25,029 bases of DNA, from positions 1-25,029 of the IMG/VR virus record IMGVR_UViG_3300047319_001302; one strand, 5' to 3'. The position numbers and the translations under genes are program-made. Each line of letters starts with the position of its first letter. Within the stretch, counting starts at the first letter, position 1. Shown piece by piece: positions 11,856-23,976 of this stretch. The notes under the pieces were generated by a model. The model worked only from the letters and a program-made list of their open reading frames with translations, made no database searches and was not told the DNA's origin. Source of the stretch: a virus.

Positions 11856-12214
11856 CGATCTGTGGTTTTGGTTGGCATTCGTTTGATGGCGTCGGCGGTG
11901 TGGCGGATTGTGCTATTGAGCAGGTTTGTGACGTAAGCGATATCTTCTGGGGTTGCGGGTGGCGTCGTTAGTTTCGGGCGGGCGGGTTTATTAAATTTCT
12001 TTCGGTAATGGGCTTCGGCGATATCGGCTCTGGCGGGGTCGAACCAGTTGCCTTCTGGGTCGCACGGTGAGGTTTTGACGTGTTGCTCGACATCGAGGAA
12101 GGCTCTGCGGAATCCGTAGGTATCGGCGTGCCATTGCCACTTCTCCGGCACGGAGAGAGCGGCGAAGCCGGCACGTTTCTGCTTATCGAGGGCTGGTTGG
12201 AAGAGGTAGGTCAC
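11852..12214 (-). CDS. 120-residue protein after the replication gene
   Basis: Starts at GTG 12,214 (GTGA overlap with the DUF1376-type gene). It begins (M)TYLFQPALDKQKRAG, with aromatic-rich VPEKWQWHADTYGFRRAF and PEGNWFDPARADIAEAHYRK, and ends basic (DAIKRMPTKTTDR). Its place directly after a replication-initiator-like gene is where many phages keep a helicase loader, but there is no P-loop, so I do not assign that role. Confidence 0.7.
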   Translation of the reverse strand: MTYLFQPALDKQKRAGFAALSVPEKWQWHADTYGFRRAFLDVEQHVKTSPCDPEGNWFDPARADIAEAHYRKKFNKPARPKLTTPPATPEDIAYVTNLLNSTIRHTADAIKRMPTKTTDR

Positions 12215-13077
12215 TTCAGTTGCTCGATTTCCTCGGGGGAGAGAGGCGGTGGGGGGCCTGGCGGTCGGTCTGGGATGTATTCGAAGTTTGGGTCGTGTCC
12301 GTTTGGTTTTGGTGACAGGTCTGGTTTGGCGTTGATGGCCCATCGCAGCCATCGGGGTCCGTCACGAATGGCATTCGGGTAGAGCAGGAACTTCTCGGCT
12401 TCCAGGTGAAGGTCAACGGGCGGCAGATTGTGCTTGGCGCGTAGCTCGGCGGCGGCACGGATCATTTCTTCACTGACATCGAATTTGTCACCTTGAGAGA
12501 GAGGGTCTTCGCCGGGCGCCTCGCGCGCGCGGCTCTCTCTCTCCTCTGAAGTACCTTTGATAAAAGGTACGTAAGAAGGAGTATCCGTTACCGTATGAGG
12601 TTCCGTTACCGTATGAGGTTCCGTTACTGCGCAAACGACATCCGTAACGTTTGTCGTATGTAACGCGTTACGTGGGTTGTTACGTCGCCACTCTGCAATG
12701 CGTTTCCGCTCTGCTTCTCTACGCTGTACGTTGGCGGCGTGGGATGCGTACGCACGCTTGACTTCGTCGCACATCACGGGATGGTAGAGGCGGCCGTCTG
12801 AGCAAAGAATGAAGCCGTGCAATGCGTTAGCACGGACCTTGGTCCAGCGGCGACCGGCGCCCGAGAAGCCGGCGAGCGCACGATCGTCGTTTGGCAGCGA
12901 GCCTCCCGGCGTCTGCTTCCAGGCGCGGCACCATAGCATAAAGGCGGCCCAACATTCTTCCGGGGTCGCAATCGCTATCAATTCACTTGCGAGCAAGCGA
13001 TCGACGTGAAGGCGAAAATCGCTGAGCATGCTGACGTCATAATCAGGGGGAACGAGGGGCTCCGGTCGATCGTCCAC
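12211..13077 (-). CDS. DUF1376-type phage replication protein
   Basis: The likely start is GTG 13,077, 5 bp after the upstream stop; the frame beyond is arginine/proline junk. The 288-residue protein has an N-terminal domain of about 120 residues (LVPPDYDVSMLSDFRLHV, TPEECWAAFMLWCRAWKQTP, GSLPNDDRALAGFSG) typical of DUF1376/YdaU proteins found in prophage replication modules. A basic coiled segment (RREAERKRIAEWRRNNP) and a low-complexity linker with the 6-residue repeat TEPHTV follow, then a helical C-terminus (MIRAAAELRAKHNLPP) and a proline tail. The linker is encoded by the GTTAC repeat cluster. Probably the initiator; inferred from context. Confidence 0.75.
   Translation of the reverse strand: MDDRPEPLVPPDYDVSMLSDFRLHVDRLLASELIAIATPEECWAAFMLWCRAWKQTPGGSLPNDDRALAGFSGAGRRWTKVRANALHGFILCSDGRLYHPVMCDEVKRAYASHAANVQRREAERKRIAEWRRNNPRNALHTTNVTDVVCAVTEPHTVTEPHTVTDTPSYVPFIKGTSEERESRAREAPGEDPLSQGDKFDVSEEMIRAAAELRAKHNLPPVDLHLEAEKFLLYPNAIRDGPRWLRWAINAKPDLSPKPNGHDPNFEYIPDRPPGPPPPLSPEEIEQLK
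12551..12570. repeat. 8-bp inverted repeat inside the replication gene
   Basis: GTACCTTT and AAAGGTAC are perfect arms around a GATA loop in a locally AT-rich stretch, 15 bp from the first GTTAC repeat. It could help strand opening or be a binding site. Confidence 0.6.
12585..12684. repeat. Cluster of seven GTTAC/GTAAC motifs (candidate origin iterons)
   Basis: CCGTTACCG lies at 12,585 and 12,603 and CCGTTACTG at 12,621, a strict 18-bp period with an identical TATGAGGTT filler. An inverted copy CCGTAACG is at 12,642. A perfect palindrome GTAACGCGTTAC is at 12,660-12,671, and another GTTACG at 12,679. All fall inside the linker-coding part of the replication gene, as lambda's iterons do in gene O. 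Origin activity is an inference. Confidence 0.6.
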
Positions 13078-13082
13078 GATGC

Positions 13083-13280
13083 CTATCCGACGCGTTGGAG
13101 TGAGAGGGCTTCGCGCCCGGCGAGCCAGCCGAGCATGAAGGTGCGGACCTCGCGCCAGCGCGAGCGGCGGGGGAATGTGGGGATGCCGAGTTGCTGCCGG
13201 ATGACGGCGGCGGCGATGCCGCCGCGGCGCCACAAGGTGATCGTCACATGGACGTCGGCGTAGAGTTGGGCTTGGCTCAC
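13083..13280 (-). CDS. Small basic DNA-binding-like protein
   Basis: 65 residues from GTG 13,280 (GTGA overlap). The sequence (M)SQAQLYADVHVTITLW, then GIAAAVIRQQLGIPTFPRR, looks like one short helical domain with a possible helix-turn-helix around residues 20-40, and an aromatic/basic end (WREVRTFMLGWLAG). No family recognised. Its TAG is 5 bp before the replication gene start. Confidence 0.6.
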   Translation of the reverse strand: MSQAQLYADVHVTITLWRRGGIAAAVIRQQLGIPTFPRRSRWREVRTFMLGWLAGREALSLQRVG

Positions 13281-13585
13281 GGTGCGGCCCCGGCTTTGCG
13301 CATGGCGGCGCGGAGTTCGGGCATGCGGGCTTGCCAGCGGGCGTAGAGGGAGGCGTCGTCGCTCGGCGGCCGGGCCGGCGGCACCGCATCCCAGGTGTCG
13401 TGAGCGTCGGGGGGGATATGGCGGGCGACGGCGGATTTGGCGCGGCCGAGGGCGGCGGCGATGCTTTTGAGGCCGCAGCCCGCGGCGAGCATGGTTCGCA
13501 GGGTGGCGATCTCGTCGGCGTCGAACGGCGATGACTGATAGCCCGAGCGTGTGTAGCGGCCGGTGTAGGTGGAGTGGTTGCTCAT
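13277..13585 (-). CDS. Small HTH protein
   Basis: 102 residues from ATG 13,585, overlapping the RusA stop as ATGA. After a Ser/Tyr-rich leader (YTGRYTRSGYQSSPFD), residues about 24-55 (EIATLRTMLAAGCGLKSIAA, LGRAKSAVARHI) form a resolvase-like helix-turn-helix with an A-A-A-L-G-R turn. A proline-rich linker and a helical end (LYARWQARMPELRAAMRK) follow. Likely a DNA-binding regulator of the early module; targets unknown. Confidence 0.65.
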   Translation of the reverse strand: MSNHSTYTGRYTRSGYQSSPFDADEIATLRTMLAAGCGLKSIAAALGRAKSAVARHIPPDAHDTWDAVPPARPPSDDASLYARWQARMPELRAAMRKAGAAP

Positions 13586-14052
13586 GCGGCGGCCTCCGCA
13601 GGCGCGAGCGGCAGTGCCCATGCGGCGACTGTCACCGGGCTGATTGTTACCACCAGTTTGGGCTGGAGCCCGTAGATTTTGCGGGCGCGGGCCTCGACAA
13701 TGAGGGCGTCGTCTCTAAACACCACACCGTTGAATGCGTCGGCCATTAACTTCCACAAATTATCCAGATCGGGCCTGCCGCTTGGCCGGATGAGCCCTAA
13801 GATGGCGAGATTGCGGCGCTTTCTGCTCCAGCTTGCCGGGATCGGCAGCTCCGCCAGCAGCTCGACCGACACCGGCTCGTCGAGCACGGCGGCGCCCATG
13901 TGCAGCATGGTGTTGGCGGCTTCGATGCGGAGCGCGGCCATTGCGTTGCGCTGCGGCGCGGGGACGAAGTGGGCGCCGGTGCGGGCGGCGATACGCATCC
14001 TCGCAAATGGAGTCGGAGGCCCCATAAGGACCACAGTCACGGGCTTAGACAT
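13582..14052 (-). CDS. rusA: RusA-family Holliday junction resolvase
   Basis: Cleaves four-way junctions during phage recombination and before packaging. The 156-residue protein has the RusA layout: beta-strand start (PVTVVLMGPPTPFARMR), a basic middle (IPASWSRKRR), and the catalytic block GRPDLDNLWKLMADAFNG followed by VVFRDDALIVE. The acidic residues Asp95, Asp97 and Asp115 and Lys101 sit where RusA's metal ligands and lysine are expected. Start ATG 14,052 overlaps the 3' end of the homing endonuclease gene by 8 bp. Confidence 0.88.
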   Translation of the reverse strand: MSKPVTVVLMGPPTPFARMRIAARTGAHFVPAPQRNAMAALRIEAANTMLHMGAAVLDEPVSVELLAELPIPASWSRKRRNLAILGLIRPSGRPDLDNLWKLMADAFNGVVFRDDALIVEARARKIYGLQPKLVVTISPVTVAAWALPLAPAEAAA

Positions 14053-14785
14053 TGCCGCGTTCCTCGCGCCACTTAGCCCAACGGCGCAACTGCCCTTCGG
14101 TCAGCTTCTTCCTGGTTTCGTCAGAAGGGGACCGTCCTCGCATAGCGTCGGCTCGCGCTTTAACGGCGGCGGGATCGGCTTTGCGGCCAGTCAGCGACCG
14201 CGAGATCTTTGCTCGCTGTTCTGGCGATATGATCCGCCCTTTAGCTATTCGCGATAGCGTTTCCCGATGTGTTTTCGACAAGGGCCTGCCGGTTTGAATG
14301 TCGATCAGGCGCTGAACATGTTCAGGCGACAGTTTGCGCCCGCGCTGCGGGCCAATAACGCGCTCGACGAACTCCGGGTCTTGCCAAAGTGCCTTGCGCG
14401 CCGCACGCATGCGCTCGCGTGTCTCGTCACTTACGTCATAAGCTCCGTCACCGCCGCCGGTTAAATTGTATCCGCCGTCGCGCACGTGTGTTTTCAGGGA
14501 GACGATTAACTCTTGCTCTAGGCGTGCTAGCGACGCTTTGTCATCAGCGGTTGCGATGACTTCGAAGCGGAAAGCCCTGACGCCATGTCGCGCTAGGGCT
14601 CGATGAATAAGATGCAGCGGGCTGTGCTTTGCGGTTGATATGTGGGAAGCCCATCGCGCGCTCGGATGCCTCGTTGTTACGCCGATATAAGCCGCGCCGG
14701 TCTTGATGTTGGCGATACGATAGACGTACCCAAACGAGGCGACGGGCTCGCCGAGGAGTGACACCGTGATCGGCTGCGCGGTCAT
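14045..14785 (-). CDS. GIY-YIG homing endonuclease with rusA-like leader
   Basis: The ATG at 14,785 overlaps a 22-residue ORF as ATGA; a GTG at 14,797 is possible. Residues 19-110 form a GIY-YIG nuclease domain: YVYRI then AAYIGVT (the GIY and YIG strands), Arg44, His48, a conserved Glu in LEQELIVSL, and YNLTGGGDG. Residues 115-240 are repeated DNA-binding modules of the NUMOD type (SDETRERMRAARKALW, LSPEHVQRLI, LSKTHRETLSRIAKG, SDETRKKLTEGQLRRW). The first 16 residues (TAQPITVSLLGEPVA) do not belong to the nuclease. They resemble the start of RusA (SKPVTVVLMGPPTP), the next gene, suggesting insertion at the rusA 5' end. Confidence 0.85.
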   Translation of the reverse strand: MTAQPITVSLLGEPVASFGYVYRIANIKTGAAYIGVTTRHPSARWASHISTAKHSPLHLIHRALARHGVRAFRFEVIATADDKASLARLEQELIVSLKTHVRDGGYNLTGGGDGAYDVSDETRERMRAARKALWQDPEFVERVIGPQRGRKLSPEHVQRLIDIQTGRPLSKTHRETLSRIAKGRIISPEQRAKISRSLTGRKADPAAVKARADAMRGRSPSDETRKKLTEGQLRRWAKWREERGNV

Positions 14786-14850
14786 GCGGTTGTCCACCGC
14801 TCATTCCAGTCTTTGAACGCGAACTGGCGCAACCCTTCCATGCCGGTCAC
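14782..14850 (-). CDS. 22-residue linker ORF
   Basis: GTG 14,850 overlaps the methyltransferase TGA (GTGA), and its own TGA overlaps the homing endonuclease ATG (ATGA). The peptide contains LRQFAFKDWNERWTTA. Perfect junctions on both ends suggest it is translated, either as a real tiny gene or as the remnant of a gene cut by the homing-endonuclease insertion. Confidence 0.4.
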   Translation of the reverse strand: MTGMEGLRQFAFKDWNERWTTA

Positions 14851-15782
14851 CGGACAAACCCAAATTGGCTGAACACGTTGCGGAAACGGTCACCGTGCGG
14901 GCCATAGTAGAAGAAGGCTTGGCCTTGAGTCGGCATGCACTCGTCGCCATCGGGGTCGACGAACTTCACCCGGCCGCGGGTGAAACACAGCAGGTCGGCG
15001 GCCGACTCGGCGTGGTGGAACCATGCACCATCGGTGTAATTGTGGGTGAGGACGATGGCCTGGGCGACGTTGCGCGCGGTGACTTCATCGACCAGCTTAG
15101 CGATGAACTGGCCGACCAGGGGGGCAGCGTAGGGTGGGTTAAGCCACACCCGGCCGTGCCAGGGTTGCACCAGGCCGTTGTCGGCGGCGGTGTAGTGGCT
15201 GATGGCGCGCACGATCTGCTGCGCCACCGGGTGGGTTGCCGGGTCGAGGTCGATCTCGCCCATCACCTCGCGGGCGGCCTCGATGTATTGCGCCGGGGTA
15301 AACCACTCGTTGTTGCCGGTGCCGAGCGCGCGGAAGTTTTCGTCCGCTTCCAGCCCCGCCTTGCGATAGGCGGCAACGATCTGCTGTGAGCGGTATTTAA
15401 CCTCGTCGGAGAGCTTCTTAGCCCACCGGGAGACGGTGTCTACGCGAATGCCGCTTAGCTCGGTGGCCTTGCTGGCAGACAAGATAGCAGGGTCTGCAAT
15501 CTTGTTTCGGCCGAGGCCGTGCCCGATGCTGACATTCTCATTCCACCAGCGGACGAAGTCCTGCTGTTCGTCAATCTTTAGCTCGATGGCCTGCTCCAGC
15601 AGCGGCCAATCTTTAACCCGAGCCGCATACTCGATGATGGCATCGGCCTTTGCCTGCTCGACCTTGGTTGCTTCCGGCGACACGGCCGGCAAGCCGCTGA
15701 GGTGCCGCAGCCTCAGCGCACCCACGGCCGCATAATACGAGTCGTGCAAATCGACGCTGGCGTCGTAGGTGCGCTCAGCCAT
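14847..15782 (-). CDS. Phage DNA N-6-adenine methyltransferase (Dam family)
   Basis: Methylates adenine in the phage DNA, commonly to evade host restriction. The 311-residue protein has an N-terminal region of about 95 residues, an HTH-like segment at about 100-127 (ASKATELSGIRVDTVSRWAK), and a Dam-type catalytic domain from residue 158: NEWFTPAQYIEAAREVMG, EIDLDPAT, and the catalytic NPPY at 215-218 (VWLNPPYAAP). The C-terminus has a VKFVDPDGD and QGQAFFYYG pattern typical of phage Dam proteins. No restriction enzyme is visible. ATG 15,782; its TGA overlaps the next ORF. Confidence 0.88.
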   Translation of the reverse strand: MAERTYDASVDLHDSYYAAVGALRLRHLSGLPAVSPEATKVEQAKADAIIEYAARVKDWPLLEQAIELKIDEQQDFVRWWNENVSIGHGLGRNKIADPAILSASKATELSGIRVDTVSRWAKKLSDEVKYRSQQIVAAYRKAGLEADENFRALGTGNNEWFTPAQYIEAAREVMGEIDLDPATHPVAQQIVRAISHYTAADNGLVQPWHGRVWLNPPYAAPLVGQFIAKLVDEVTARNVAQAIVLTHNYTDGAWFHHAESAADLLCFTRGRVKFVDPDGDECMPTQGQAFFYYGPHGDRFRNVFSQFGFVR

Positions 15783-15909
15783 CAGCGCGCCTCACGTAAG
15801 CCGCCGGCAGCGAGGCGCAGGGGGAAGCTGCGGCCGGAGGTTGGCCGCCGCCTCGCTGCCGGCGTACCGGCGGCGTGCCCCGACGCGCGCGGCCGGGTAG
15901 GGTACTCAC
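15775..15909 (-). CDS. 44-residue basic ORF over a hairpin
   Basis: GTG 15,909 overlaps the upstream TGA (GTGA) and the stop at 15,777-15,775 overlaps the methyltransferase start region by 8 bp. The peptide is R/P/G/A-rich (GRARRGTPPVRRQRGGG) because it crosses a 15-bp inverted repeat, so its protein status is uncertain. The junctions are the only support. Confidence 0.3.
   Translation of the reverse strand: MSTLPGRARRGTPPVRRQRGGGQPPAAASPCASLPAAYVRRADG
15803..15863. repeat. 15-bp perfect inverted repeat upstream of the methyltransferase
   Basis: GCCGGCAGCGAGGCG at 15,803-15,817 pairs with CGCCTCGCTGCCGGC at 15,849-15,863 around a 31-base loop that can also fold. On the minus-strand transcript it would form a strong stem 20 bp before the methyltransferase start. 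No U tract follows, so attenuation or mRNA protection is more likely than termination. Confidence 0.7.
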
Positions 15910-15998
15910 CGAGCCCACCGGCGGATGCTGTAGCCGCACAGCATGGCGGCCGGGATGGCGGCGGCGAGGTAGGCGACGGCGATCGCGGCGGCGGTCAT
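15906..15998 (-). CDS. 30-residue membrane peptide
   Basis: ATG 15,998 overlaps the upstream TGA (ATGA), and the stop overlaps the next GTG. The peptide is a single hydrophobic helix (AIAVAYLAAAIPAAMLCG) with a short basic end (SIRRWAR), so it would insert with a cytoplasmic basic tail. Function unknown. Confidence 0.5.
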   Translation of the reverse strand: MTAAAIAVAYLAAAIPAAMLCGYSIRRWAR

Positions 15999-16279
15999 GC
16001 GGCTTTACCCGCGGGAGGATTCCGGAAAACCTCCGGAGCGATCAGGCAGCCGTGTCGAACAAACAGCAATTGCCACTTGGCCGAGACGCCGCGCTGGCGC
16101 CACTTGTAGATGGCTTCATCGCGCGCCCCGAATTGCCGGCCTAGGCGTTCGATCTCGTCCCAAGCGGCAGCATCTACCTTGCTTCTCGCCCTGAGTTTTG
16201 CCCAGCCCGATTGAGTAGCCGCGCGATCCAATAGGCTATCCAGCCGGCGAGCCATTTCATCTTCCCCCCAGGCTTTCAT
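15995..16279 (-). CDS. Cro/YdaS-like small regulator
   Basis: 94 residues from ATG 16,279, overlapping the upstream TGA as ATGA. The C-terminal part (WDEIERLGRQFGARDEAI, YKWRQRGVSAKWQLLFV, then RHGCLIAPEVF) matches the pattern of phage Cro-like helix-turn-helix proteins, where the recognition helix is followed by W-R-x-R-G-V. The N-terminal 45 residues are a charged helix. It is probably a DNA-binding regulator of early genes, distinct from the Cro-like protein at 16,652. Confidence 0.65.
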   Translation of the reverse strand: MKAWGEDEMARRLDSLLDRAATQSGWAKLRARSKVDAAAWDEIERLGRQFGARDEAIYKWRQRGVSAKWQLLFVRHGCLIAPEVFRNPPAGKAA

Positions 16280-16533
16280 TTCTCGGCCGCCCATTCAGCG
16301 AGGCGGCGGCGGACGGCGCCGCGCTCGACTTCCTGAGCGTCCATTTCGGCGAGCAGCGCCACCGCCAACTCGCGGCGACGGGCTGAGGAGAAGCGTCGAT
16401 AGAGGCTGTGGCGCGCGGTATCGAGAGGGATGCCGAGCAGCCGGGCCAGCCTCTTCATCGTGTCGCGCGGGTAGACCGCGCGGATAGCGGCGGCCTCGTC
16501 GATCATCGGAGTCGCAATTCTGTTGCGGTGCAT
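16276..16533 (-). CDS. 85-residue HTH protein
   Basis: The ATG at 16,533 follows an AGGGGCG Shine-Dalgarno; the longer frame to 16,707 is rejected. The sequence MHRNRIATPMIDEAAAIRAV, then DTMKRLARLLGIPLDTARHS, contains a helix-turn-helix at about residues 25-45 followed by LYRRFSSARRRELAVALL and a basic helical tail. The same layout occurs in small regulators of rhizobial prophages. Target unknown. It is the second gene of the leftward operon. Confidence 0.7.
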   Translation of the reverse strand: MHRNRIATPMIDEAAAIRAVYPRDTMKRLARLLGIPLDTARHSLYRRFSSARRRELAVALLAEMDAQEVERGAVRRRLAEWAAEK

Positions 16534-16590
16534 TTGACCGCCCCTCTCGCCAATGTTCGGGATGCGAGAGGAGGCAAAGTGGCAGAGGTG

Positions 16591-16650
16591 CCGGCAGCCG
16601 CAGTTATGGGATGGCGTCCGGGGGTAACGGACGGTGGCTGCGGCTGCCGG
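16591..16650. repeat. 13-bp perfect inverted repeat between two regulators
   Basis: CCGGCAGCCGCAG (16,591-16,603) pairs with CTGCGGCTGCCGG (16,638-16,650) over a 34-base loop. It starts 1 bp after the Cro-like gene stop on the minus strand and ends 58 bp before the next start. It may act as a partial terminator or RNA stabiliser in the leftward transcript; no U tract is seen. Confidence 0.65.
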
Positions 16651-16651
16651 G

Positions 16652-16849
16652 TCATGCTGCGTCGGCTTGAGCCGCCCGCAGTACATCTTGCAGGCGACGG
16701 TAAACATCGAGTGTTGGTGAAGTACGACCGACTCGCCACCGATAAAACGTTGTGTGCGCTATGTTTGCGCGCTTACACAACTCGGCGACGGAGAGGCCAA
16801 CCTCATCTGCCAAACGCTCAACATCGGCGGGCGAAAGCAGGCAATCCAT
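16652..16849 (-). CDS. Cro-like regulator
   Basis: 65 residues: MDCLLSPADVERLADEVG, then LSVAELCKRANIAHTTFYRW (helix-turn-helix about 19-39) and a short helical end (VYRRLQDVLRAAQ). It is the first gene of the leftward operon and divergent from the CI-like repressor across about 90 bp containing three operators. This is the standard cro/cI arrangement. No Shine-Dalgarno precedes ATG 16,849, and the predicted -10 element ends 9 bp before it, so the mRNA may be leaderless. It presumably binds the same GTGCA operators. Confidence 0.75.
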   Translation of the reverse strand: MDCLLSPADVERLADEVGLSVAELCKRANIAHTTFYRWRVGRTSPTLDVYRRLQDVLRAAQADAA

Positions 16850-16857
16850 GAGGCAAA

Positions 16858-16886
16858 GTTTGCGTGCAATATTGCACGACGGTCAA
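16858..16886 (-). promoter_or_regulatory. Leftward early promoter (cro side)
   Basis: On the minus strand: -35 TTGACC (16,886-16,881), a 17-bp spacer that contains operator O1, then a weak -10 GCAAAC (16,863-16,858). Operator O2 abuts the upstream side of the -35. The expected transcript start is at or next to ATG 16,849. Confidence 0.55.
16864..16877. promoter_or_regulatory. Operator O1
   Basis: GTGCAATATTGCAC, a perfect 14-bp palindrome (16 bp with the flanking C and G), sits in the spacer of the leftward promoter. It is the best match among five sites of form GTGCA-N4-TGCAC. Confidence 0.8.
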
Positions 16887-16900
16887 GTGCATTCTTGCAG
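16887..16900. promoter_or_regulatory. Operator O2
   Basis: GTGCATTCTTGCAG has one mismatch in the last half-site base. It lies 23 bp from O1 (start to start) and abuts the -35 of the leftward promoter. Confidence 0.7.
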
Positions 16901-16921
16901 AATGACGCCGTCTATATGGCC

Positions 16922-16935
16922 GTGCAAATGTGCAC
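16922..16935. promoter_or_regulatory. Operator O3
   Basis: GTGCAAATGTGCAC has both half-sites perfect. It ends 2 bp before the repressor ATG and would overlap its transcription start, which suggests autorepression. Confidence 0.75.
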
Positions 16936-16937
16936 TT

Positions 16938-17207
16938 ATGGATGACGATCAGGAAGCCGCTCGGCGGTTTGTTAAAGACATCCTGCGGATAACCGGCTGG
17001 TCATCGAACCGGCTGGCAAAAGAAGCCCAGATATCGCACACGACGATATCGCGGTTTTTAAATAACCAGGATGTGACCCATACTTTGTCGGCTCGGACTT
17101 TATCGAAAGTCCGCAATGCCGCAGCCGCGTCGCAGGGGATCACCCTTGCTCAACTTGACGCAATATGGCTGGTAGCCCAGGGTCGCCCGACTACGCGTTC
17201 TGGATAA
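16938..17207 (+). CDS. CI-like repressor (short form)
   Basis: 89 residues from ATG 16,938 (MDDDQEAARRFVKDIL); longer frames upstream run through the operators. Residues about 12-45 are a helix-turn-helix of the XRE/HTH_3 type (SSNRLAKEAQISHTTISRFL), followed by a helical tail (ITLAQLDAIWLV). There is no C-terminal S24/LexA-type autocleavage domain, so RecA-triggered self-cleavage is not expected and induction must work another way. The gene is divergent from the Cro-like gene and followed by a strong terminator. No Shine-Dalgarno is visible; O3 occupies that position. Confidence 0.8.
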   Translation: MDDDQEAARRFVKDILRITGWSSNRLAKEAQISHTTISRFLNNQDVTHTLSARTLSKVRNAAAASQGITLAQLDAIWLVAQGRPTTRSG

Positions 17208-17239
17208 CGGACCCCTACTAAGCATCGCTCTCTCCATCA

Positions 17240-17279
17240 AACGCCGGACGGGCTGATCCCCGTCCGGCGTTCACATTTT
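17240..17279 (+). terminator. Rho-independent terminator after the repressor gene
   Basis: AACGCCGGACGGG (17,240-17,252) and CCCGTCCGGCGTT (17,259-17,271) form a perfect 13-bp stem with a CTGATC loop, followed by CACATTTT. It isolates repressor transcription from the rightward operon. Confidence 0.85.
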
Positions 17280-17336
17280 ACGGCTTAGCCAAGCGACTAG
17301 CGACGGCGCTTTCCTCCCTTCGACCGGGCGGCGGGT

Positions 17337-17350
17337 GTGCAATTTTGCAC
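17337..17350. promoter_or_regulatory. Operator O4
   Basis: GTGCAATTTTGCAC, both half-sites perfect, directly abuts the -35 TTGACG of the rightward promoter. Confidence 0.8.
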
Positions 17351-17379
17351 TTGACGTACGTGCAGGAATGCACATCATT
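17351..17379 (+). promoter_or_regulatory. Rightward early promoter
   Basis: -35 TTGACG (17,351-17,356), a 17-bp spacer that contains operator O5, then -10-like ATCATT (17,374-17,379). The layout matches the leftward promoter base for base in spacing. It would drive the ParB-to-integrase operon. Confidence 0.55.
17360..17373. promoter_or_regulatory. Operator O5
   Basis: GTGCAGGAATGCAC, both half-sites perfect, lies 23 bp after O4, the same distance as O1 to O2, inside the promoter spacer. Confidence 0.8.
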
Positions 17380-17436
17380 GCTCCCACGACCGGCACCAAC
17401 CCATCCCGGGCGTGTGCCCTCGTGAGGAGTGTTGTG

Positions 17437-18456
17437 ATGAGTGATACCAAGACGACGACCTGGGCGCCGGCAGTGCGGTGCGATCTGACGGCCGGGTCGC
17501 AGGCGTTCGCGCATGCGGTCGAGAAGTTCCGCGCCTGGGCGGCGGAACAGCAACGCCCGTCGCTGGATTTTCTTACGACGGGGTGGCACACGATCACCCC
17601 GGAGATTGCGGAGCAGTTGCTGATCTGCAACCGGCATAACCGCAAGCTGCGCTATACCGATGTGCTGCGTTATGCCACCGATATGTCGACGGGGCGGTGG
17701 CTCAAGACCGGCGAGCCGGTGATCATCACCGACGCCGGCGATCTCGAGGACGCCGGGCACCGCTGCATGGCGTGCCTGTTCTCGGGCTGCTCGTTTCCGA
17801 CGTTCGTGGTAACCGGCGTTCCGCACGACGACCAGTTGTTCAGCTTCATCGACAACGGTGTCTCCCGCACCGGGGACGATACGCTGCACTGTGCCGGGCT
17901 CAACGGGCTGAGCGGCAACATCCAGTCGGCGATCAAGAACTACGCCATCCGCTACGACGAGGGCTTGCTGCACTGGCACGGGCGTCCGTCGATTACGCCG
18001 ATCGCCAACCACCACATTCTCGACTATGCGCAGGCGCATCCGTCGCTGGCGGTGGTGGCGCACAAGGTGGCGGACGTCTACCAGGCGGCGATCCGGCGGC
18101 TCGACGACAAGGTTGCGGCAACCTTTGTCGGATGGAAGATCCACGAAGCCTACGGCACTGGCGTGTTTGACGAGTTCATGATGTCGCTGACGCAATCGGA
18201 TCTGCCCGCTGGGCATCCGGTTCTGGTGCTGCAGAAGCGTCTTGATGACCACGAGGCAGCCAAGGACGCGGCGCCTCGGTCGGCCAAAGCTAAGTTCAAG
18301 CTCAATGGCGTCAAGACCGTGGTGCTGGCGATGCGCGCCTTTCTGTATTGGCAGGAGGGTCGGATGAACGTGCGGCGGCTCGATCCCGGTATGGATGATC
18401 CGTTCCCCCGGATCGAGAAGCCGGAGGAAGGCGAACTCGCCGCCGCCGCACAATAA
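17437..18456 (+). CDS. ParB-fold (ParB/Srx-like) phage protein
   Basis: The ATG at 17,437 has an AGGAG Shine-Dalgarno 8 bp upstream; the frame back to 17,335 crosses the operators and is rejected. The 339-residue protein has a ParB-nuclease-like domain at about 50-150: TITPEIAEQLL, NRHNR (65-69), DVLRYATDMSTGRWLKTGEP, DAGHR (105-109) and SFIDNGVSRTGDD, a pattern I know from phage 'ParB-like' proteins whose box II has the GxxR signature. The C-terminal 180 residues are helical. The role could be gene regulation, DNA nicking or partition; not known. First gene of the rightward operon. Confidence 0.75.
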   Translation: MSDTKTTTWAPAVRCDLTAGSQAFAHAVEKFRAWAAEQQRPSLDFLTTGWHTITPEIAEQLLICNRHNRKLRYTDVLRYATDMSTGRWLKTGEPVIITDAGDLEDAGHRCMACLFSGCSFPTFVVTGVPHDDQLFSFIDNGVSRTGDDTLHCAGLNGLSGNIQSAIKNYAIRYDEGLLHWHGRPSITPIANHHILDYAQAHPSLAVVAHKVADVYQAAIRRLDDKVAATFVGWKIHEAYGTGVFDEFMMSLTQSDLPAGHPVLVLQKRLDDHEAAKDAAPRSAKAKFKLNGVKTVVLAMRAFLYWQEGRMNVRRLDPGMDDPFPRIEKPEEGELAAAAQ

Positions 18457-18464
18457 CTCGACAG

Positions 18465-18493
18465 GGGCGGGGGGAAACTCCCGCCCTTCTTTT
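18465..18493 (+). terminator. Hairpin with T-rich tail between the two ParB genes
   Basis: GGGCGGG (18,465-18,471) and CCCGCCC (18,480-18,486) flank GGAAACT, followed by TTCTTTT. It looks like an intrinsic terminator, but the downstream gene is 15 bp away in the same direction, so it probably attenuates the operon. Confidence 0.7.
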
Positions 18494-18507
18494 GCAGGAT
18501 CAGCCCG

Positions 18508-19545
18508 ATGCCATACCCCCATCACCCCGACACTGAACTCTTTCCGATGCTGTCGGAGGACGAACTAATCGAGCTTGCCGACGATATTGCTGCCAATGGA
18601 CTGTATGAGGCGATCAAGCTCGACCCTACCGGCGAGATTCTGGTTGACGGCCGCAACCGCGAGGCGGCCTGCGATATAGCCGGTGTCGAACCGCGCTATG
18701 TGCGCCTGCCGGATGGCACTGACATCTTCGCTTACATCGTCGCGACGAATCTGCGCCGCCGACATCTGTCCGCCGCCACGCGCCACGACGTTATTCGCGC
18801 AATAGCAGCCCGTAACCCAGATTTGAGTAATCGGCAAATAGCCAAGCTGGCCAACGTCAGTCATGTGACTGTAGGACAAGCAATCTCCGTTCAACTGGAC
18901 AGGGGCCTTCCAGTTGAACGCAAGACCATCGGTGCCGATGGAAAGTTAAGACCGGCATCGGGGAAGATCAGCGAAGTAACCAGAGCGGCGGTTATTGCAG
19001 ATTTAAAAAAATATCCCTGGGAGCAGCGCGACATCGCCGAGCGCCACGGCGTCTCGGTCGGCACCGTCGCCGGCATTAAACGCCGCCTCAAATCGGAGGG
19101 CGGTTTACCCAAGCCCACCACGCCGACCATCGCTGAGCAGCTGGCCAAACGCGCTGCCAATCTGCCGCGTTTCGACACGATGACCCGCGAAGAACGTGGC
19201 ATGGGCTCGCGCGAATACGGCGCCGAGCAGCACCCGGAGTACCCGCCGGGCTGGACCCGCGACCATGTCCACCGCGAGAAGTACGGACGCATCCAGATTT
19301 ACACGCCGGCGCAAATTGAGGAGCAGGCGCTCGCGAAACGCAACATTGCGAGCATCGGGGGATTAAAAATCTTCTTCGAAAACGCTCTCGATATCGAGGA
19401 CCTAGACAGACTCAGCGAAAATTCGCAGGAGTTTAACGACCTCCAGGTAGAAAAATTCGGCCCGCGAGTCCTCGATTTGATTGCCGGGTATCTCGCCCGC
19501 ATCAAAGCCCGCAAAGCGCCCAAGCTGACGATCGTAAAGCCGTGA
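18508..19545 (+). CDS. ParB-like DNA-binding protein
   Basis: 345 residues from ATG 18,508 (AGGA Shine-Dalgarno). The N-terminal ParB domain includes LADDIAANGLYEAIKLDP and GEILVDGRNREAACDIAG (42-59) and an LRRRHLSAATRHDVIRA helix pair. Residues 106-126 (LSNRQIAKLANVSHVTVGQA) and 172-194 (RDIAERHGVSVGTVAGIKRR) are two separate helix-turn-helix units. The final 120 residues are a distinct domain (FFENALDIEDLDRLSENSQE). ParB proteins use CTP to slide on DNA in partition, but related phage proteins act as regulators. No parA is present. Stop overlaps the next start (GTGA). Confidence 0.82.
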   Translation: MPYPHHPDTELFPMLSEDELIELADDIAANGLYEAIKLDPTGEILVDGRNREAACDIAGVEPRYVRLPDGTDIFAYIVATNLRRRHLSAATRHDVIRAIAARNPDLSNRQIAKLANVSHVTVGQAISVQLDRGLPVERKTIGADGKLRPASGKISEVTRAAVIADLKKYPWEQRDIAERHGVSVGTVAGIKRRLKSEGGLPKPTTPTIAEQLAKRAANLPRFDTMTREERGMGSREYGAEQHPEYPPGWTRDHVHREKYGRIQIYTPAQIEEQALAKRNIASIGGLKIFFENALDIEDLDRLSENSQEFNDLQVEKFGPRVLDLIAGYLARIKARKAPKLTIVKP

Positions 19546-19622
19546 TCCTCGACACTGTTGGCATAGTGATGGCGGTGCTCTGCGCCCTGGTGACAGTGGC
19601 GTGGATGTGGGTGCTGCTGTGA
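19542..19622 (+). CDS. 26-residue membrane peptide
   Basis: GTG 19,542 overlaps the ParB TGA (GTGA) and its own stop overlaps the next GTG. It is one hydrophobic helix, (M)ILDTVGIVMAVLCALVTVA, ending WMWVLL. Perfect junctions on both sides support translation. Function unknown. Confidence 0.55.
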   Translation: MILDTVGIVMAVLCALVTVAWMWVLL

Positions 19623-19831
19623 TACGTCCGTCCCTCGATCAGCTTCTCTACCGGGTGTTTTGCGAAGCGCAGGCCCTACTGCGCGAGGCGGAGCGGCTCG
19701 ATGCCGGCCGGCTGCCGCGGATTGCCGAGCGGCTGCTGCCGCTGAGCCGGGCGGTGGAGGCGGTCGAGGACCACGAACAGCGCGCCGCCGAGGCCGAGGA
19801 TCGCGCGGCGGCGTGTATGGGATGGCTGTAG
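19619..19831 (+). CDS. Small charged helical protein
   Basis: 70 residues from GTG 19,619 (GTGA overlap): (M)IRPSLDQLLYRVFCEAQAL then LREAERLDAGRLPRIAERLL and an E/A/D-rich tail ending CMGWL. The whole protein looks like a helical bundle or coiled coil. No family recognised. Confidence 0.65.
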   Translation: MIRPSLDQLLYRVFCEAQALLREAERLDAGRLPRIAERLLPLSRAVEAVEDHEQRAAEAEDRAAACMGWL

Positions 19832-19962
19832 TGTGGTGGCGTGACCGCTGGTGCCGCAAGCGGCTGACGTGGCCGCAGCGGGTTCTGTTTTACCGCCGCT
19901 GCGCGTGTCCCGCCGGGATCTGTTTGCCGCAGGGGCCGGGCGGCCCGGTCGAGCCGCGATGA
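19822..19962 (+). CDS. 46-residue basic W/C-rich protein
   Basis: ATG 19,822 is chosen; GTG 19,831 (TAGTG junction with the previous stop) would remove three residues. The peptide contains WWRDRWCRKRLTWPQ, then RRCACPAGICLPQGPGG with four cysteines, so it may bind metal or be membrane-attached. Its TGA overlaps the next ATG. Similar tiny basic proteins are common in rhizobial phage early operons. Confidence 0.55.
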   Translation: MAVVWWRDRWCRKRLTWPQRVLFYRRCACPAGICLPQGPGGPVEPR

Positions 19963-20234
19963 CTGGCGCGCTGGCCGCCGGGCTGCTGTGGCTCGTCGCC
20001 GACACGGTTGACCCGCAGGTGCTGTCGATCGAGTGGCCCGACGGCAGCTCGGAGACGGTGGCGGCCACCAACGCCGGCATCTGCGCAATTGCGGTGAGCG
20101 CGCTCCTGAGCGGGCTATGGCGCCCGGTGGGGCGGCCCGAGCCGCCGCTGAGCGCGAGCTGCAGCACCGGCAATGCGTTTGCCGCCGATGCGTTTTGTAT
20201 CAAAGGACACGACCGCGACTGCGGGAGGCGATGA
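19959..20234 (+). CDS. Small protein with hydrophobic segments
   Basis: 91 residues from ATG 19,959 (ATGA). Two hydrophobic parts, GALAAGLLWLVADTV (2-17) and AGICAIAVSALLSGLW (55-70), flank a polar domain (LSIEWPDGSSETVAATN). The tail has cysteines and charges (CIKGHDRDCGRR). Possibly a small membrane protein. Unknown family. Confidence 0.6.
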   Translation: MTGALAAGLLWLVADTVDPQVLSIEWPDGSSETVAATNAGICAIAVSALLSGLWRPVGRPEPPLSASCSTGNAFAADAFCIKGHDRDCGRR

Positions 20235-20377
20235 AGATGGGCGCGATCTCATTCTCGAATTGCGTTTTCGAGCAGCCCGCACGGCGACGTCGCCGCTGCC
20301 GATCGTTGTTTCTGCCGGCCGGGATCATGCTGTGGGTGGCCGCGGTCGGCTGGGTGCTGGCGGCGCTGGCGCTATGA
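20231..20377 (+). CDS. 48-residue membrane protein
   Basis: ATG 20,231 overlaps the previous TGA (ATGA). A basic cluster (ARRRRRCRS) precedes one strong transmembrane helix at the C-terminus (IMLWVAAVGWVLAALAL), so the basic side should stay in the cytoplasm. Stop overlaps the next ATG. Confidence 0.55.
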   Translation: MKMGAISFSNCVFEQPARRRRRCRSLFLPAGIMLWVAAVGWVLAALAL

Positions 20378-20604
20378 GCGATCCGTTGGCACCACAATCC
20401 GGCGATTGTCCATTAAGCGAGAGCGAGGTGCGCGAATTGATTTATGCCGCGCTGTCGATCAATGACCGGCTAACGATCGATGATTGCGGTGTCGCGCATT
20501 TCGGCGGCAGCCAGAACGATGTCGAGGATTTCCGCGAAACCATCAATCGCCTCTGGCATCGCAGTGTCGGTTGGATTGAGCGACCCGAAGAGGCTAAACG
20601 ATGA
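20374..20604 (+). CDS. Small acidic protein before the exonuclease
   Basis: 76 residues from ATG 20,374 (ATGA): SESEVRELIYAALSINDR, then a short beta-like stretch and DFRETINRLWHRSVGWIE. Acidic overall. Directly coupled to the YqaJ gene, so it may be a recombination accessory factor, but no motif shows this. Confidence 0.65.
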   Translation: MSDPLAPQSGDCPLSESEVRELIYAALSINDRLTIDDCGVAHFGGSQNDVEDFRETINRLWHRSVGWIERPEEAKR

Positions 20605-21503
20605 CCGAGCCCGCACGCGAGCAGTGGCAGATAACCTCGATCGGCGAGTGGCTCGAGCGGCGCCGTCACCACATCACCGCCAGCAGGATTGGTGCCCTGT
20701 TCGACTGCCACGATTACCTGTCACGCGAAGGGCTGGCGGCTGAACTGAGGGGCGAGTCGGGCGAGGTGCCGAATGCCAGCATGCGCGCCGGCAACATCCT
20801 CGAGGGCGGCTTCCCGGCGGCGGTGCGGCTGGATGACAAACCGTGGGCGCTGAGCAAGGCTGACACCTATCACTGGCTGCCCGAGCACCGGCTGGGCTGC
20901 ACGCCGGACTTCTGGATCGGCGATGACGGGTTGTTCCAGGCCAAGACTGCCAGCACCGAGCAGTGGCAGAAATGGCACGGGCATCCGCCGCTGATGTACC
21001 TGCTGCAGACCCTCACCGAGCTGATCGTCACCGGGCGCACCTGGGGCGTGCTGGGAGTGATGATCCGGGCCGGCGGCTATCCTATCCATTATTACGAAGT
21101 GGCCCGCCACGAGGCGGCGGAGCGGCGCATATTGGATGCTGTCGCGGCCTGGTGGCGGGCGTTCGATGCGGGCGAGTTCCCGGCGGCGGCGCCGAGCGCG
21201 GAGATCGCCGAGATGCTCGACGACGGCAGCCACCTCGACCTTTCCGATAACAATTACCTTTGCTCCGGCCTGCTGCCCGAGCGCGAGAAATTAAAGGCGG
21301 AGCTTTCGGCCGGCGAAAAACGCGTGTCCGAGATCGACAGCATCATCAAGGCAGCGATGGGCAACGCGTCGAGTGCGTGGATACCTGGGTACAACCTTAC
21401 GTACCGCTCGCAGAGCCGCAAGGAAGTGACCATTCCGGCCAAGACGTTCCGCGTCCTGCGGGTGCGCGCCGCCGCCGAGGAGGAGGGAGCCGATGTCCAA
21501 TGA
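20601..21503 (+). CDS. YqaJ-type viral recombinase (lambda-exonuclease fold)
   Basis: A 5'-3' double-strand exonuclease that makes single strands for the partner annealing protein. The 300-residue protein begins with ITASRIGALF (25-34), the usual start of the fold, then Glu68 in NILEGG, Asp103 in CTPDFWI and FQAKTA with Lys115. These match the catalytic series; the residue two before the lysine is Gln rather than the common Glu, which also occurs in some family members. The C-terminal 70 residues are a helical extension (LPEREKLKAELSAGEKR). ATG 20,601 overlaps the previous stop; 3' end overlaps the next gene by 11 bp. Confidence 0.85.
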   Translation: MTEPAREQWQITSIGEWLERRRHHITASRIGALFDCHDYLSREGLAAELRGESGEVPNASMRAGNILEGGFPAAVRLDDKPWALSKADTYHWLPEHRLGCTPDFWIGDDGLFQAKTASTEQWQKWHGHPPLMYLLQTLTELIVTGRTWGVLGVMIRAGGYPIHYYEVARHEAAERRILDAVAAWWRAFDAGEFPAAAPSAEIAEMLDDGSHLDLSDNNYLCSGLLPEREKLKAELSAGEKRVSEIDSIIKAAMGNASSAWIPGYNLTYRSQSRKEVTIPAKTFRVLRVRAAAEEEGADVQ

Positions 21504-22551
21504 ATTAGCGCCGCTGCCGTTCGAGCAGATGCAGGCGCTGGCGCAGTCGATCGCGCGCAGCGGCATGTTCGGCATCCGCACGCCGGACCAGGCGATGGTG
21601 TTGATGTCGATTGCGCAGGCCGAGGGCCGGCACCCCGCATTGGCGGCGCGCGACTACCACATCATCAATAATTCGCCGAGCAAAAAGAGCGAGGCGATGC
21701 TGCGCGACTTCTTGGGTGCCGGCGGCAAGGTGCAGTGGCACGAGTTGACGGACGACGCTGCCGAGGCGACGTTCAGCCATCCGCAAGGCGGCGAGGCCAA
21801 GATCCGCTGGGACGCGGCCCGCGTCACGAGGGCGGGCCTCGGCGTCAATGCCATGCACAAGAAATATCCGAGGCAGATGTTGCGCAGCCGCGTGGTGTCA
21901 GAGGGTGTTCGCACCATCTGGCCGATGGCAACCGGGGGGCTTTATGCCCCGGAAGAAGTCGCCGACATGCCACCGCGCGAGCCGATCGACGTGACGCCGG
22001 CCGCGCCGATCGACACCGCCGCCGACCTCGATGCGTTTGCCGCCGAGCCAATGGTCGACGAGGAGCGGCTGCACCAACGGGCCGAGGGCGTTGCCAAGGA
22101 AGGCACAGAGGCGCTGCGCGGCTTCTGGGAGAGGCTGGCGGGCTCGGAGCGCAAGTCTCTGCAACCGCTCATGCCTACGTACAAGGCTGTCGCTGTAGAG
22201 GCTGACGAGCGGGCGCGGGACGACGACCCGTTCGGCCTGCCGCCGATCTCCGAAGAGCACTTCACCCATGTCGACACAACCAAGCACGCACTGATCCTGG
22301 AGCACCCGGCGGTGCCGTTCGCCGCGGCGGTGCGCGGGCTGGTGCCAGCCGCCGGCGACGACGGCGAGTTGGACTGGGCCGCCTGGTCGCGGGCGTTTGT
22401 TGCCCTCGTCGAGCAGGCGACGCCGGCCGAGGCGCGGAAATGCCGGCTCAGCGATCTGCCGCATTATGGCAAGTGCCGCACTGAGGATGGCGATGCGGCG
22501 CGGGCGGTGCTAGAGGCGGTGAACGCGAAGAGCAAGGAGGCGGCGCAATGA
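21493..22551 (+). CDS. RecT-like single-strand annealing protein
   Basis: Pairs complementary strands produced by the exonuclease. ATG 21,493 follows a full AGGAGGGA Shine-Dalgarno inside the end of the exonuclease gene. The first 160 residues carry the RecT-family pattern: TPDQAMVLMSIAQAEGRHPA, an AMLRDFLGAGGKVQW segment, and MLRSRVVSEGVRTIWP with YAPEEVAD. The remaining 190 residues are acidic, proline-containing and variable, with a charged region (ADERARDDDPFG). The assignment rests on the RVVSEGVR motif and the position next to YqaJ. Confidence 0.75.
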   Translation: MSNELAPLPFEQMQALAQSIARSGMFGIRTPDQAMVLMSIAQAEGRHPALAARDYHIINNSPSKKSEAMLRDFLGAGGKVQWHELTDDAAEATFSHPQGGEAKIRWDAARVTRAGLGVNAMHKKYPRQMLRSRVVSEGVRTIWPMATGGLYAPEEVADMPPREPIDVTPAAPIDTAADLDAFAAEPMVDEERLHQRAEGVAKEGTEALRGFWERLAGSERKSLQPLMPTYKAVAVEADERARDDDPFGLPPISEEHFTHVDTTKHALILEHPAVPFAAAVRGLVPAAGDDGELDWAAWSRAFVALVEQATPAEARKCRLSDLPHYGKCRTEDGDAARAVLEAVNAKSKEAAQ

Positions 22552-22739
22552 AGAAGATGCGCGAGGTCAAATGGGAGCCCGGGCGCTGGATTGACTTCGC
22601 ATATCCCGGCGGCGCGATACGTGAGCGTGACGGGACCATAGTGGCGACCGGCCTCATGATATCGGAGGAAGACGCCGAAAAGCTGAAGGCAAAGATCACG
22701 GCGGAGTGGCCCGCGTGGCGGCGACGCAACACTAATTAG
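22548..22739 (+). CDS. 63-residue hypothetical protein
   Basis: ATG 22,548 overlaps the RecT-like TGA (ATGA). The sequence begins MKKMREVKWEPGRWIDFA, has a compact beta-like centre (GGAIRERDGTIVATGL) and ends with a charged helix (SEEDAEKLKAKITAEWPAW). Single small domain; no recognised family. Confidence 0.7.
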   Translation: MKKMREVKWEPGRWIDFAYPGGAIRERDGTIVATGLMISEEDAEKLKAKITAEWPAWRRRNTN

Positions 22740-22749
22740 GAGAGCGCCG

Positions 22750-22791
22750 ATGGCCGCCCCCCCAGCCGTTGATATCCAGCCGCTGACTTGA
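22750..22791 (+). CDS. 13-residue ORF with strong ribosome-binding site
   Basis: TTAGGAGAGCGCCG precedes ATG 22,750, which encodes MAAPPAVDIQPLT and stops 4 bp before the next gene's ATG. The ribosome-binding site is better than that of the next gene, so this may be a leader peptide that hands ribosomes on. Confidence 0.3.
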   Translation: MAAPPAVDIQPLT

Positions 22792-22795
22792 ACTG

Positions 22796-22981
22796 ATGTC
22801 TCGCGGGCCAACAACATTCCGACAACGGGACGTGTCCGCAGCCATGAAGGCGGCGACGGACGCCGGCTATGCCGTGGTCCGGGTCGAAATTGACAAGACC
22901 GGGAAGATCATTCTCGTAACGTCAAAGGCGGGCAATACCGTCGAGGAGGAGGTGGCCAAGTGGGACGCGGCGCTCTCGTGA
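22796..22981 (+). CDS. Small conserved-looking protein before integrase
   Basis: 61 residues: MSRGPTTFRQRDVSAAMKAA, TDAGYAVVRVEIDKTGKIIL, ending EEVAKWDAALS. An RQRDV-x-A helix followed by a beta-hairpin (VRVEIDKTGKIILVTS) recurs in rhizobial prophages just upstream of integrases in my experience, but the function is unknown. It might be a small DNA-binding or excision-related factor; this is only positional inference. Its TGA overlaps the integrase GTG. Confidence 0.7.
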   Translation: MSRGPTTFRQRDVSAAMKAATDAGYAVVRVEIDKTGKIILVTSKAGNTVEEEVAKWDAALS

Positions 22982-23976
22982 GACTGAAGTACATTCACCA
23001 ATTCCGCGACCGCTACGGACAGGTCCGCTACTACTTCCGACGCGACGGCCGCCGCACGGCGCTTCCCGGCGCACCTGGGACACTGGAGTTCATGGAGGCT
23101 TACCACAGAGCCTCCGCAGGCTTTGAGGTGCCCCAGCGTGCGTCTAGCGCGGCGGGATCGGTTTCCGCCGTGATCGCCGCCTATTACCAGCACAATGCAT
23201 TTGTCGCGCAGGCTGCCAGCACCCGAGCGACCCGCCGGCGCATCCTCGAAAACTTCCGCGCCGAGCATGGTGCGCTTTCAATCACCGGGCTGCGGGCAAA
23301 TCATATTGCCAAGATACTCAGCGGGAAGACGCCGGGGATGGCGAAGCAGTGGATGAATGCGCTGCGCGGCCTAATGCGGTTTGCAGTGCTGATCGGGGCG
23401 TGCCCGACCGATCAGACTGTCGGGCTTAAAGCTCCCCTCATATCCAGCCCCGGCCACCATAGTTGGACCGAAGACGAGATCGCCCGATATATAGCGCGGC
23501 ACCGGATCGGAACGCGCGCCCACCTCGCGATGGGGCTACTGCTTCACACTGCCGCCCGGCGGGGCGACATCGTGCGCCTCGGCCCGCAGCACATCCGCAA
23601 CGGCGTGTTGACCTACGTTCAGCAGAAAACGAAGCGGCGCCTGGAAATTCCGGTCGCAGCCGAGCTTGTCGAGATCATCGCCGCGTCGGCGGGCGGCCAT
23701 TTGACCTTTCTGACAACCCAAGCCGGAATGCCCTACAGCGCTGAGGGGTTTGGCAATCTGTTTCGACAGTGGTGCAACGAGGCTGGGTTGCCGCACTGCT
23801 CCGCGCATGGGTTACGCAAGGCCCAAGCCCGGCGGCTCGCCGAGGCCGGCTGCAGCGCACCGCAGATCGCTGCCATCACGGGGCATAAGACGCTGAGCGA
23901 GGTACAGCGCTACATCGAGGCGGCATCACAGAAGACGCTCGCGGTAGCCGCGATGAGGACCGTAGCGCGAACATGA
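22978..23976 (+). CDS. int: Tyrosine-type integrase
   Basis: Catalyses site-specific integration and excision. The start is set at GTG 22,978 (GTGA overlap), giving 332 residues; GTG 22,960 would add six. An N-terminal arm-binding part (RLKYIHQFRDRYGQVRYYFR) and core-binding domain (about 60-150) precede the catalytic domain. Catalytic residues: Arg194 (TAARRGD), a Lys in QKTKRR, His277 and Arg280 (HGLRK), His303 (ITGHKT) and Tyr312 (QRYIEAA). It is the last gene of the repressor-controlled rightward operon and lies beside the tRNA-fragment attachment site. Confidence 0.93.
   Translation: MRLKYIHQFRDRYGQVRYYFRRDGRRTALPGAPGTLEFMEAYHRASAGFEVPQRASSAAGSVSAVIAAYYQHNAFVAQAASTRATRRRILENFRAEHGALSITGLRANHIAKILSGKTPGMAKQWMNALRGLMRFAVLIGACPTDQTVGLKAPLISSPGHHSWTEDEIARYIARHRIGTRAHLAMGLLLHTAARRGDIVRLGPQHIRNGVLTYVQQKTKRRLEIPVAAELVEIIAASAGGHLTFLTTQAGMPYSAEGFGNLFRQWCNEAGLPHCSAHGLRKAQARRLAEAGCSAPQIAAITGHKTLSEVQRYIEAASQKTLAVAAMRTVART

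Follow-up and report, generated by a model that had tools for sequence, protein, structure and literature searches.

A probable lambda-plan immunity region with five GTGCA-N4-TGCAC sites in a temperate phage genome

The stretch from 16858 to 17379 of IMGVR_UViG_3300047319_001302 (the window, herein the whole 25,029 nt of viral DNA analysed) raises the question of how two opposed early operons of a temperate phage might be closed by a single small repressor. An initial annotation, made from the sequence alone, had described five sites of the form GTGCA-N4-TGCAC in this region, and had proposed that one repressor acts through them on both a leftward and a rightward promoter.

Sites and promoter geometry

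Scanning recovers all five sites as described, with perfect half-sites at 16864, 16922, 17337 and 17360, and a single mismatch in the site at 16887. They are numbered below alongside the promoter elements that they surround.

16864–16877, no strand: O1, GTGCAATATTGCAC, perfect, within the leftward promoter's spacer; corresponds to OR1 of lambda
16881–16886, − strand: −35 TTGACC of the putative leftward (cro) promoter; best −10 CAAACT, 18-bp spacer, 3/6 matching
16887–16900, no strand: O2, GTGCATTCTTGCAG, one mismatch (TGCAG), abutting the leftward −35; corresponds to OR2 of lambda
16922–16935, no strand: O3, GTGCAAATGTGCAC, perfect, 2 bp 5′ of the repressor ATG; corresponds to OR3 of lambda
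17337–17350, no strand: O4, GTGCAATTTTGCAC, perfect, abutting the rightward −35; corresponds to OL2 of lambda
17351–17378, + strand: putative rightward promoter, TTGACG, 16 bp, CATCAT; −10 4/6 matching
17360–17373, no strand: O5, GTGCAGGAATGCAC, perfect, within the rightward promoter's spacer; corresponds to OL1 of lambda

The motif is not equally frequent elsewhere, as perfect sites beyond the cluster number zero in the 25,029-base record, and the only one-mismatch site outside it is an isolated example at 15015. Base composition predicts 0.028 perfect sites for the whole window and 0.0006 for 522 bp. Similarly, 5,000 Markov-1 samples of the 522-bp stretch yielded none with more than one perfect site, and none with more than one site at ≤1 mismatch. 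A literature search using the operator half-site, of incomplete coverage, found no report of a GTGCA-N4-TGCAC operator, and an Rfam search of the window returned no match.

At both promoters the paired sites lie 23 bp apart, with TTGAC immediately 3′ of the first and the second beginning 3 bp past the hexamer. On the leftward strand O2 (CTGCAAGAATGCAC) is followed directly by TTGACC and then by O1, whilst on the rightward strand O4, TTGACG and O5 succeed one another at equal distances; measurement thus bears out the identical order that had been claimed. The accompanying description of a 17-bp spacer holding an operator, followed by a −10 region, stands with regard to the operator within the spacer, but the −10 elements are weak and the spacers measure 16 bp (right) and 18 bp (left). 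The rightward promoter is the sole sigma-70-like match in the region in a promoter scan. Candidate −10 elements in a relative, L010 (IMGVR_UViG_3300038471_000012), follow the same pattern (CATCAT rightward, with hexamers at the same positions, and CACATT leftward), and because of this agreement the weak CATCAT/CAAACT-type elements may be used by the host polymerase. A TATATG at 16913 was considered as the −10 of the repressor promoter and rejected, being unconserved in L010; the position of that promoter is therefore not claimed. O3, at a distance of 35 bp from O2, had been described both as overlapping the repressor start and as a sixth element of control; it ends 2 bp before the ATG at 16938, abutting the gene only, and is itself one of the five.

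In lambda (NC_001416), measured alike, PR and PL each have operators 24 bp apart, and the −35 likewise falls between OR2 and OR1 in the one and between OL2 and OL1 in the other. The geometry is nearly identical, and with gene order also as in lambda the initial likening to OL/OR is upheld; the further assertion that the present arrangement differs in being more compact, with each −35 sandwiched, therefore fails.

Two small regulators and their operons

The genes surrounding the sites are as follows.

12211–16849, − strand: leftward early operon encoding the Cro-like protein, small DNA-binding proteins, Dam, RusA and DUF1376 (profile matches)
16652–16849, − strand: first gene of the leftward operon, Cro-like HTH protein, 65 aa (HTH_31, 3e-7)
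16938–17207, + strand: prophage repressor, 89 aa, HTH domain only (sub-threshold HTH matches)
17240–17271, no strand: perfect 13-bp inverted repeat with a 6-base loop, then CACATTTT, between the repressor gene and the rightward promoter
17437–23976, + strand: rightward early operon encoding a phrog_5931 protein, ParB-like protein, YqaJ nuclease, RecT-like protein (weak match) and integrase (profile matches)

As in the lambda switch, O1–O3 fall between divergent HTH genes (between 16849 and 16938), and a second early promoter past the repressor gene carries O4 and O5 around TTGACG at 17351. The functions of the lambda PR and PL operons are well established and, judged by gene content, the present operons would mirror that division of labour, with the leftward resembling PR and the rightward PL.

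The Cro-like protein is 83% identical in L010 and 98% identical in a further locus, L009, with a predicted structure of four helices (pLDDT 90). The repressor has an equally short homologue in L010 (77% identical), is modelled as five helices, and finds homologues in the HTH portions of longer repressors, some of which bear an S24 peptidase. A profile search found no S24 match within its 89 aa, and hence nothing of the C-terminal domain of the lambda CI family; it holds no domain known for cooperativity. Residues expected to face the DNA are HTTISR in the repressor and HTTFYR in the Cro-like protein, a similarity that suggests a common target. Searches of annotated phages returned no match for the repressor, whilst the Cro-like protein matches Komagataeibacter phages phiKX1/phiKX2 (43%); amongst annotated lambdoid phages no sequence identity to either regulator was found. 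Searches by fold turned up nothing beyond generic HTH matches, none of them significant.

The inverted repeat at 17240–17271 is a possible terminator of the repressor gene, although a terminator scan did not flag it and its T run is short. L010 has no such repeat after its repressor gene, which the rightward promoter nearly adjoins.

Conservation, exchange and the wider repressor family

L010 carries the same five sites, with half-site bases kept at 50/50 positions, including the deviant G of O2, and N4-gap bases at 16/20. O2 is identical throughout (14/14 bases, mismatch included). Between the divergent genes, conservation reaches 40/42 for site bases versus 31/46 for the others (p=0.0008), and the cro genes share 72% DNA identity. 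The rightward promoter module of L010 lies close 3′ of the repressor gene but ahead of different genes, and it is therefore the promoter–operator module itself that is conserved.

A second relative, L008 (IMGVR_UViG_3300046721_000265), displays a natural exchange. Its homology to the window covers 15792–15998 at 93% and resumes from 17385 on at 86%, delimiting the following feature.

15999–17384, no strand: exchanged immunity cassette, without homology to L008 whilst both flanks match

In place of this cassette L008 has different small regulators (repressor/Cro) and operators of an AATAGG-N6-CCTATT type, paired 22 bp apart around TTGACC at both promoters. Regulators and operators have thus been exchanged together with the promoter–operator geometry retained, which argues for assigning the sites to the regulators whose genes lie between them. 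The pair of genomes provides, from beyond the enteric lambdoid phages, a clean case of exchanged immunity in which regulators and operators move as one block.

The region adjoining the cassette varies as well. A stretch encoding a Dam-type methyltransferase (14795–15791, − strand; Pfam Dam, 2.6e-14) is missing in L008, where homology breaks off at 14794 and resumes at 15792, and the gene would appear to be a removable one beside the immunity cassette. Adjacent to this, a GIY-YIG-like ORF (14045–14797, − strand; read by eye, region 13582–14797) shares its initial residues (MTAQPITVSLLGEPVA) with RusA and splits the rusA gene, which is continuous in L008. Some 740 bp of the window (13999–14736) are not present in L008 and L009, and the downstream RusA ORF has a substitute N-terminus, MSKPVTVVLMGPPTPFARM. 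It is as if a homing endonuclease gene came with a replacement for the severed part of RusA.

Homologues of the repressor HTH, taken from three samples of approximately 400 genomes each, extend the comparison to distant prophages, in keeping with the initial suggestion that related prophages be scanned for the motif. With near-duplicates included, a GTGCA-type site (≤2 mismatches, ≤250 bp upstream) accompanies 13/17 homologues that have Arg at the R39 position, leaving four Arg-type homologues without a recognisable site, and 0/11 of those that lack this residue. Once near-duplicates, the window and L010 are excluded, GTGCA heads the 1,024 half-sites in the Arg group, occurring at 11/15 loci versus a mean of 1.8 across all half-sites (GCGCA and CTGCA come next), and is found at 0/7 loci of the non-Arg group. 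The resulting Fisher p=0.002 is somewhat optimistic because the Arg split was noticed by inspection before counting, and the rank, being computed inside the Arg group, is subject to the same after-the-fact choice. As GTGCA lies upstream only of Arg-type homologues, the sites are tied to the 89-aa repressor. This gives a clear operator for a repressor family spread across prophages of several genomes, along with a testable rule, namely that Arg at the R39 position accompanies a (G)TGCA-type half-site.

Paired sites recur within this family, 23 bp apart around TTGACA in L018 and 22 bp apart in L019, the latter having two more sites, at 785 and 812, beyond the repressor gene. Since S24-bearing homologues (L018, L022 and L037) use similar operators, the 89-aa repressor may be a reduced form of such proteins. 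At L025 (2182), L026 (2182) and L034 (1748) Lys replaces Arg, and GTGA-type palindromes, as seen by eye, adjoin TTGAC, a pairing suggestive of a residue-to-half-site code that extends further across the repressor family. Matches to Azospirillum repressors (~31%) were dropped, with no such sites seen upstream, and of two scans of bacterial genome contigs for homologues one was empty whilst the other gave one weak Duganella match.

The proposed switch and its counterparts

The five sites are very probably where the phage's own repressor binds to govern its two opposed promoters, and the proposal that one repressor closes both operons draws support from synteny, conservation, the scan of homologues and the cassette swap of L008. 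We hold with considerable confidence that the whole is an immunity region of a temperate phage on the lambda plan, with one repressor, five operators and two early promoters. The 89-aa protein, probably as a dimer, would bind all five operators. O1 and O2 would bracket the −35 of a leftward promoter driving the Cro-like protein and then the DNA-metabolism genes, whilst O4 and O5 would do likewise at a rightward promoter driving the recombination genes and integrase. Occupied pairs would cover the −35 and spacer and so exclude RNA polymerase, shutting both early operons in the lysogen. At O3 the repressor, the Cro-like protein, which may use the same sites, or both would limit repressor synthesis.

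How the Cro-like protein takes part is where the nearest competing account departs, and in that respect alone. On this account the five operators all serve the repressor, whereas the Cro-like protein would bind O3 alone, yielding an asymmetric switch like those of phiKO2 and PY54. In phiKO2 the CB repressor occupies three sites in OR and two in OL, with Cro confined to OR3 (PMC4997575), and the site association here was examined with repressor homologues rather than with Cro. However, the residues expected to face DNA are common to both proteins, and also to the repressors of relatives that have this operator, and we regard such asymmetry as possible but not the favoured reading. It is decidedly improbable that the sites serve the Cro-like protein or a host factor, with the 89-aa protein having another target or no role in lysogeny. 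Palindromes of this size would fit many HTH proteins, and the Cro-like protein is the more conserved regulator in L010; yet the joint exchange in L008 of sites and phage regulators speaks against a host factor, and the repressor homologues of distant prophages have the same upstream motif, in dependence on a residue of the recognition helix. That the palindromes cluster by chance, the stretch being short and A+T-richer, can be set aside almost completely. At ≤2 mismatches the whole window does hold 15 GTGCA-N4-TGCAC matches against 16.8 expected, and is thus without enrichment, so that information resides only in the near-perfect, clustered sites; it is the density and conservation of these that refute the idea, and their exact geometry and association with the repressor family weigh further against it.

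A more specific version of the lambda-plan reading can be offered tentatively, and is rather doubtful in its entirety. Here two proteins consisting only of DNA-binding domains would read the same half-site in a lambda layout, the repressor having lost S24. Given that loss, cooperativity would come from contacts between HTH dimers 23 bp apart, as with C proteins, and induction would proceed via an antirepressor rather than RecA.

Set against lambda, the preferred arrangement of one repressor and five operators shares the operator pair that encloses the −35 of each early promoter (one member upstream, in contact with TTGAC, its partner within the spacer), a third site adjoining the repressor gene, and the placement of cro and DNA-metabolism genes on one side with recombination and integrase genes on the other. 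It differs in having 14-bp sites of another sequence, five rather than six of them, an O2–O3 distance of 35 bp rather than 23, and a repressor without a C-terminal domain. A further difference amounts to three bases, as the lambda TTG doubles as the end of OR2/OL2, whereas TTGAC here abuts the site.

The N15/phiKO2 immB region has 3+2 operators and a repressor without a RecA cleavage site (PMC4997575). Both regions place three operators between repressor and cro and two beyond the repressor gene, and CB, like the present repressor, lacks a cleavage site; however, the immB operators are of a TA-N10-TA type rather than GTGCA-N4-TGCAC, and its far operon opens with repA, in contrast to the recombination and integrase genes found here. 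The region would appear to work like immB, and is not classed as one. Phage 933W has three OR sites and no OL3, with a repressor reported to be non-cooperative (PMC3317979); it shares the total of five operators because OL3 is missing, but has a full-length lambdoid repressor and another operator sequence. C proteins of restriction–modification systems (C.Esp1396I, C.BclI) are similarly small HTH proteins without an extra domain, and are the best, though not significant, fold matches of the repressor model (best E 0.024, 14–22% identity). Their gene context is different, and they serve as a model of small-repressor action with no kinship claimed. Particular to this switch are the operator sequence, the 35-bp O2–O3 distance and a repressor that is a DNA-binding domain only, and the general picture of such switches is unchanged.

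In phage phiKX1 (L011, 3950–3990) the elements GTGTAAGTTTTCAC and GTGAAAGTTTGCAA lie, by eye, either side of TTGCGC and ~23 bp apart, upstream of a related regulator. This isolated Komagataeibacter phage probably has the same promoter–operator plan with another operator.
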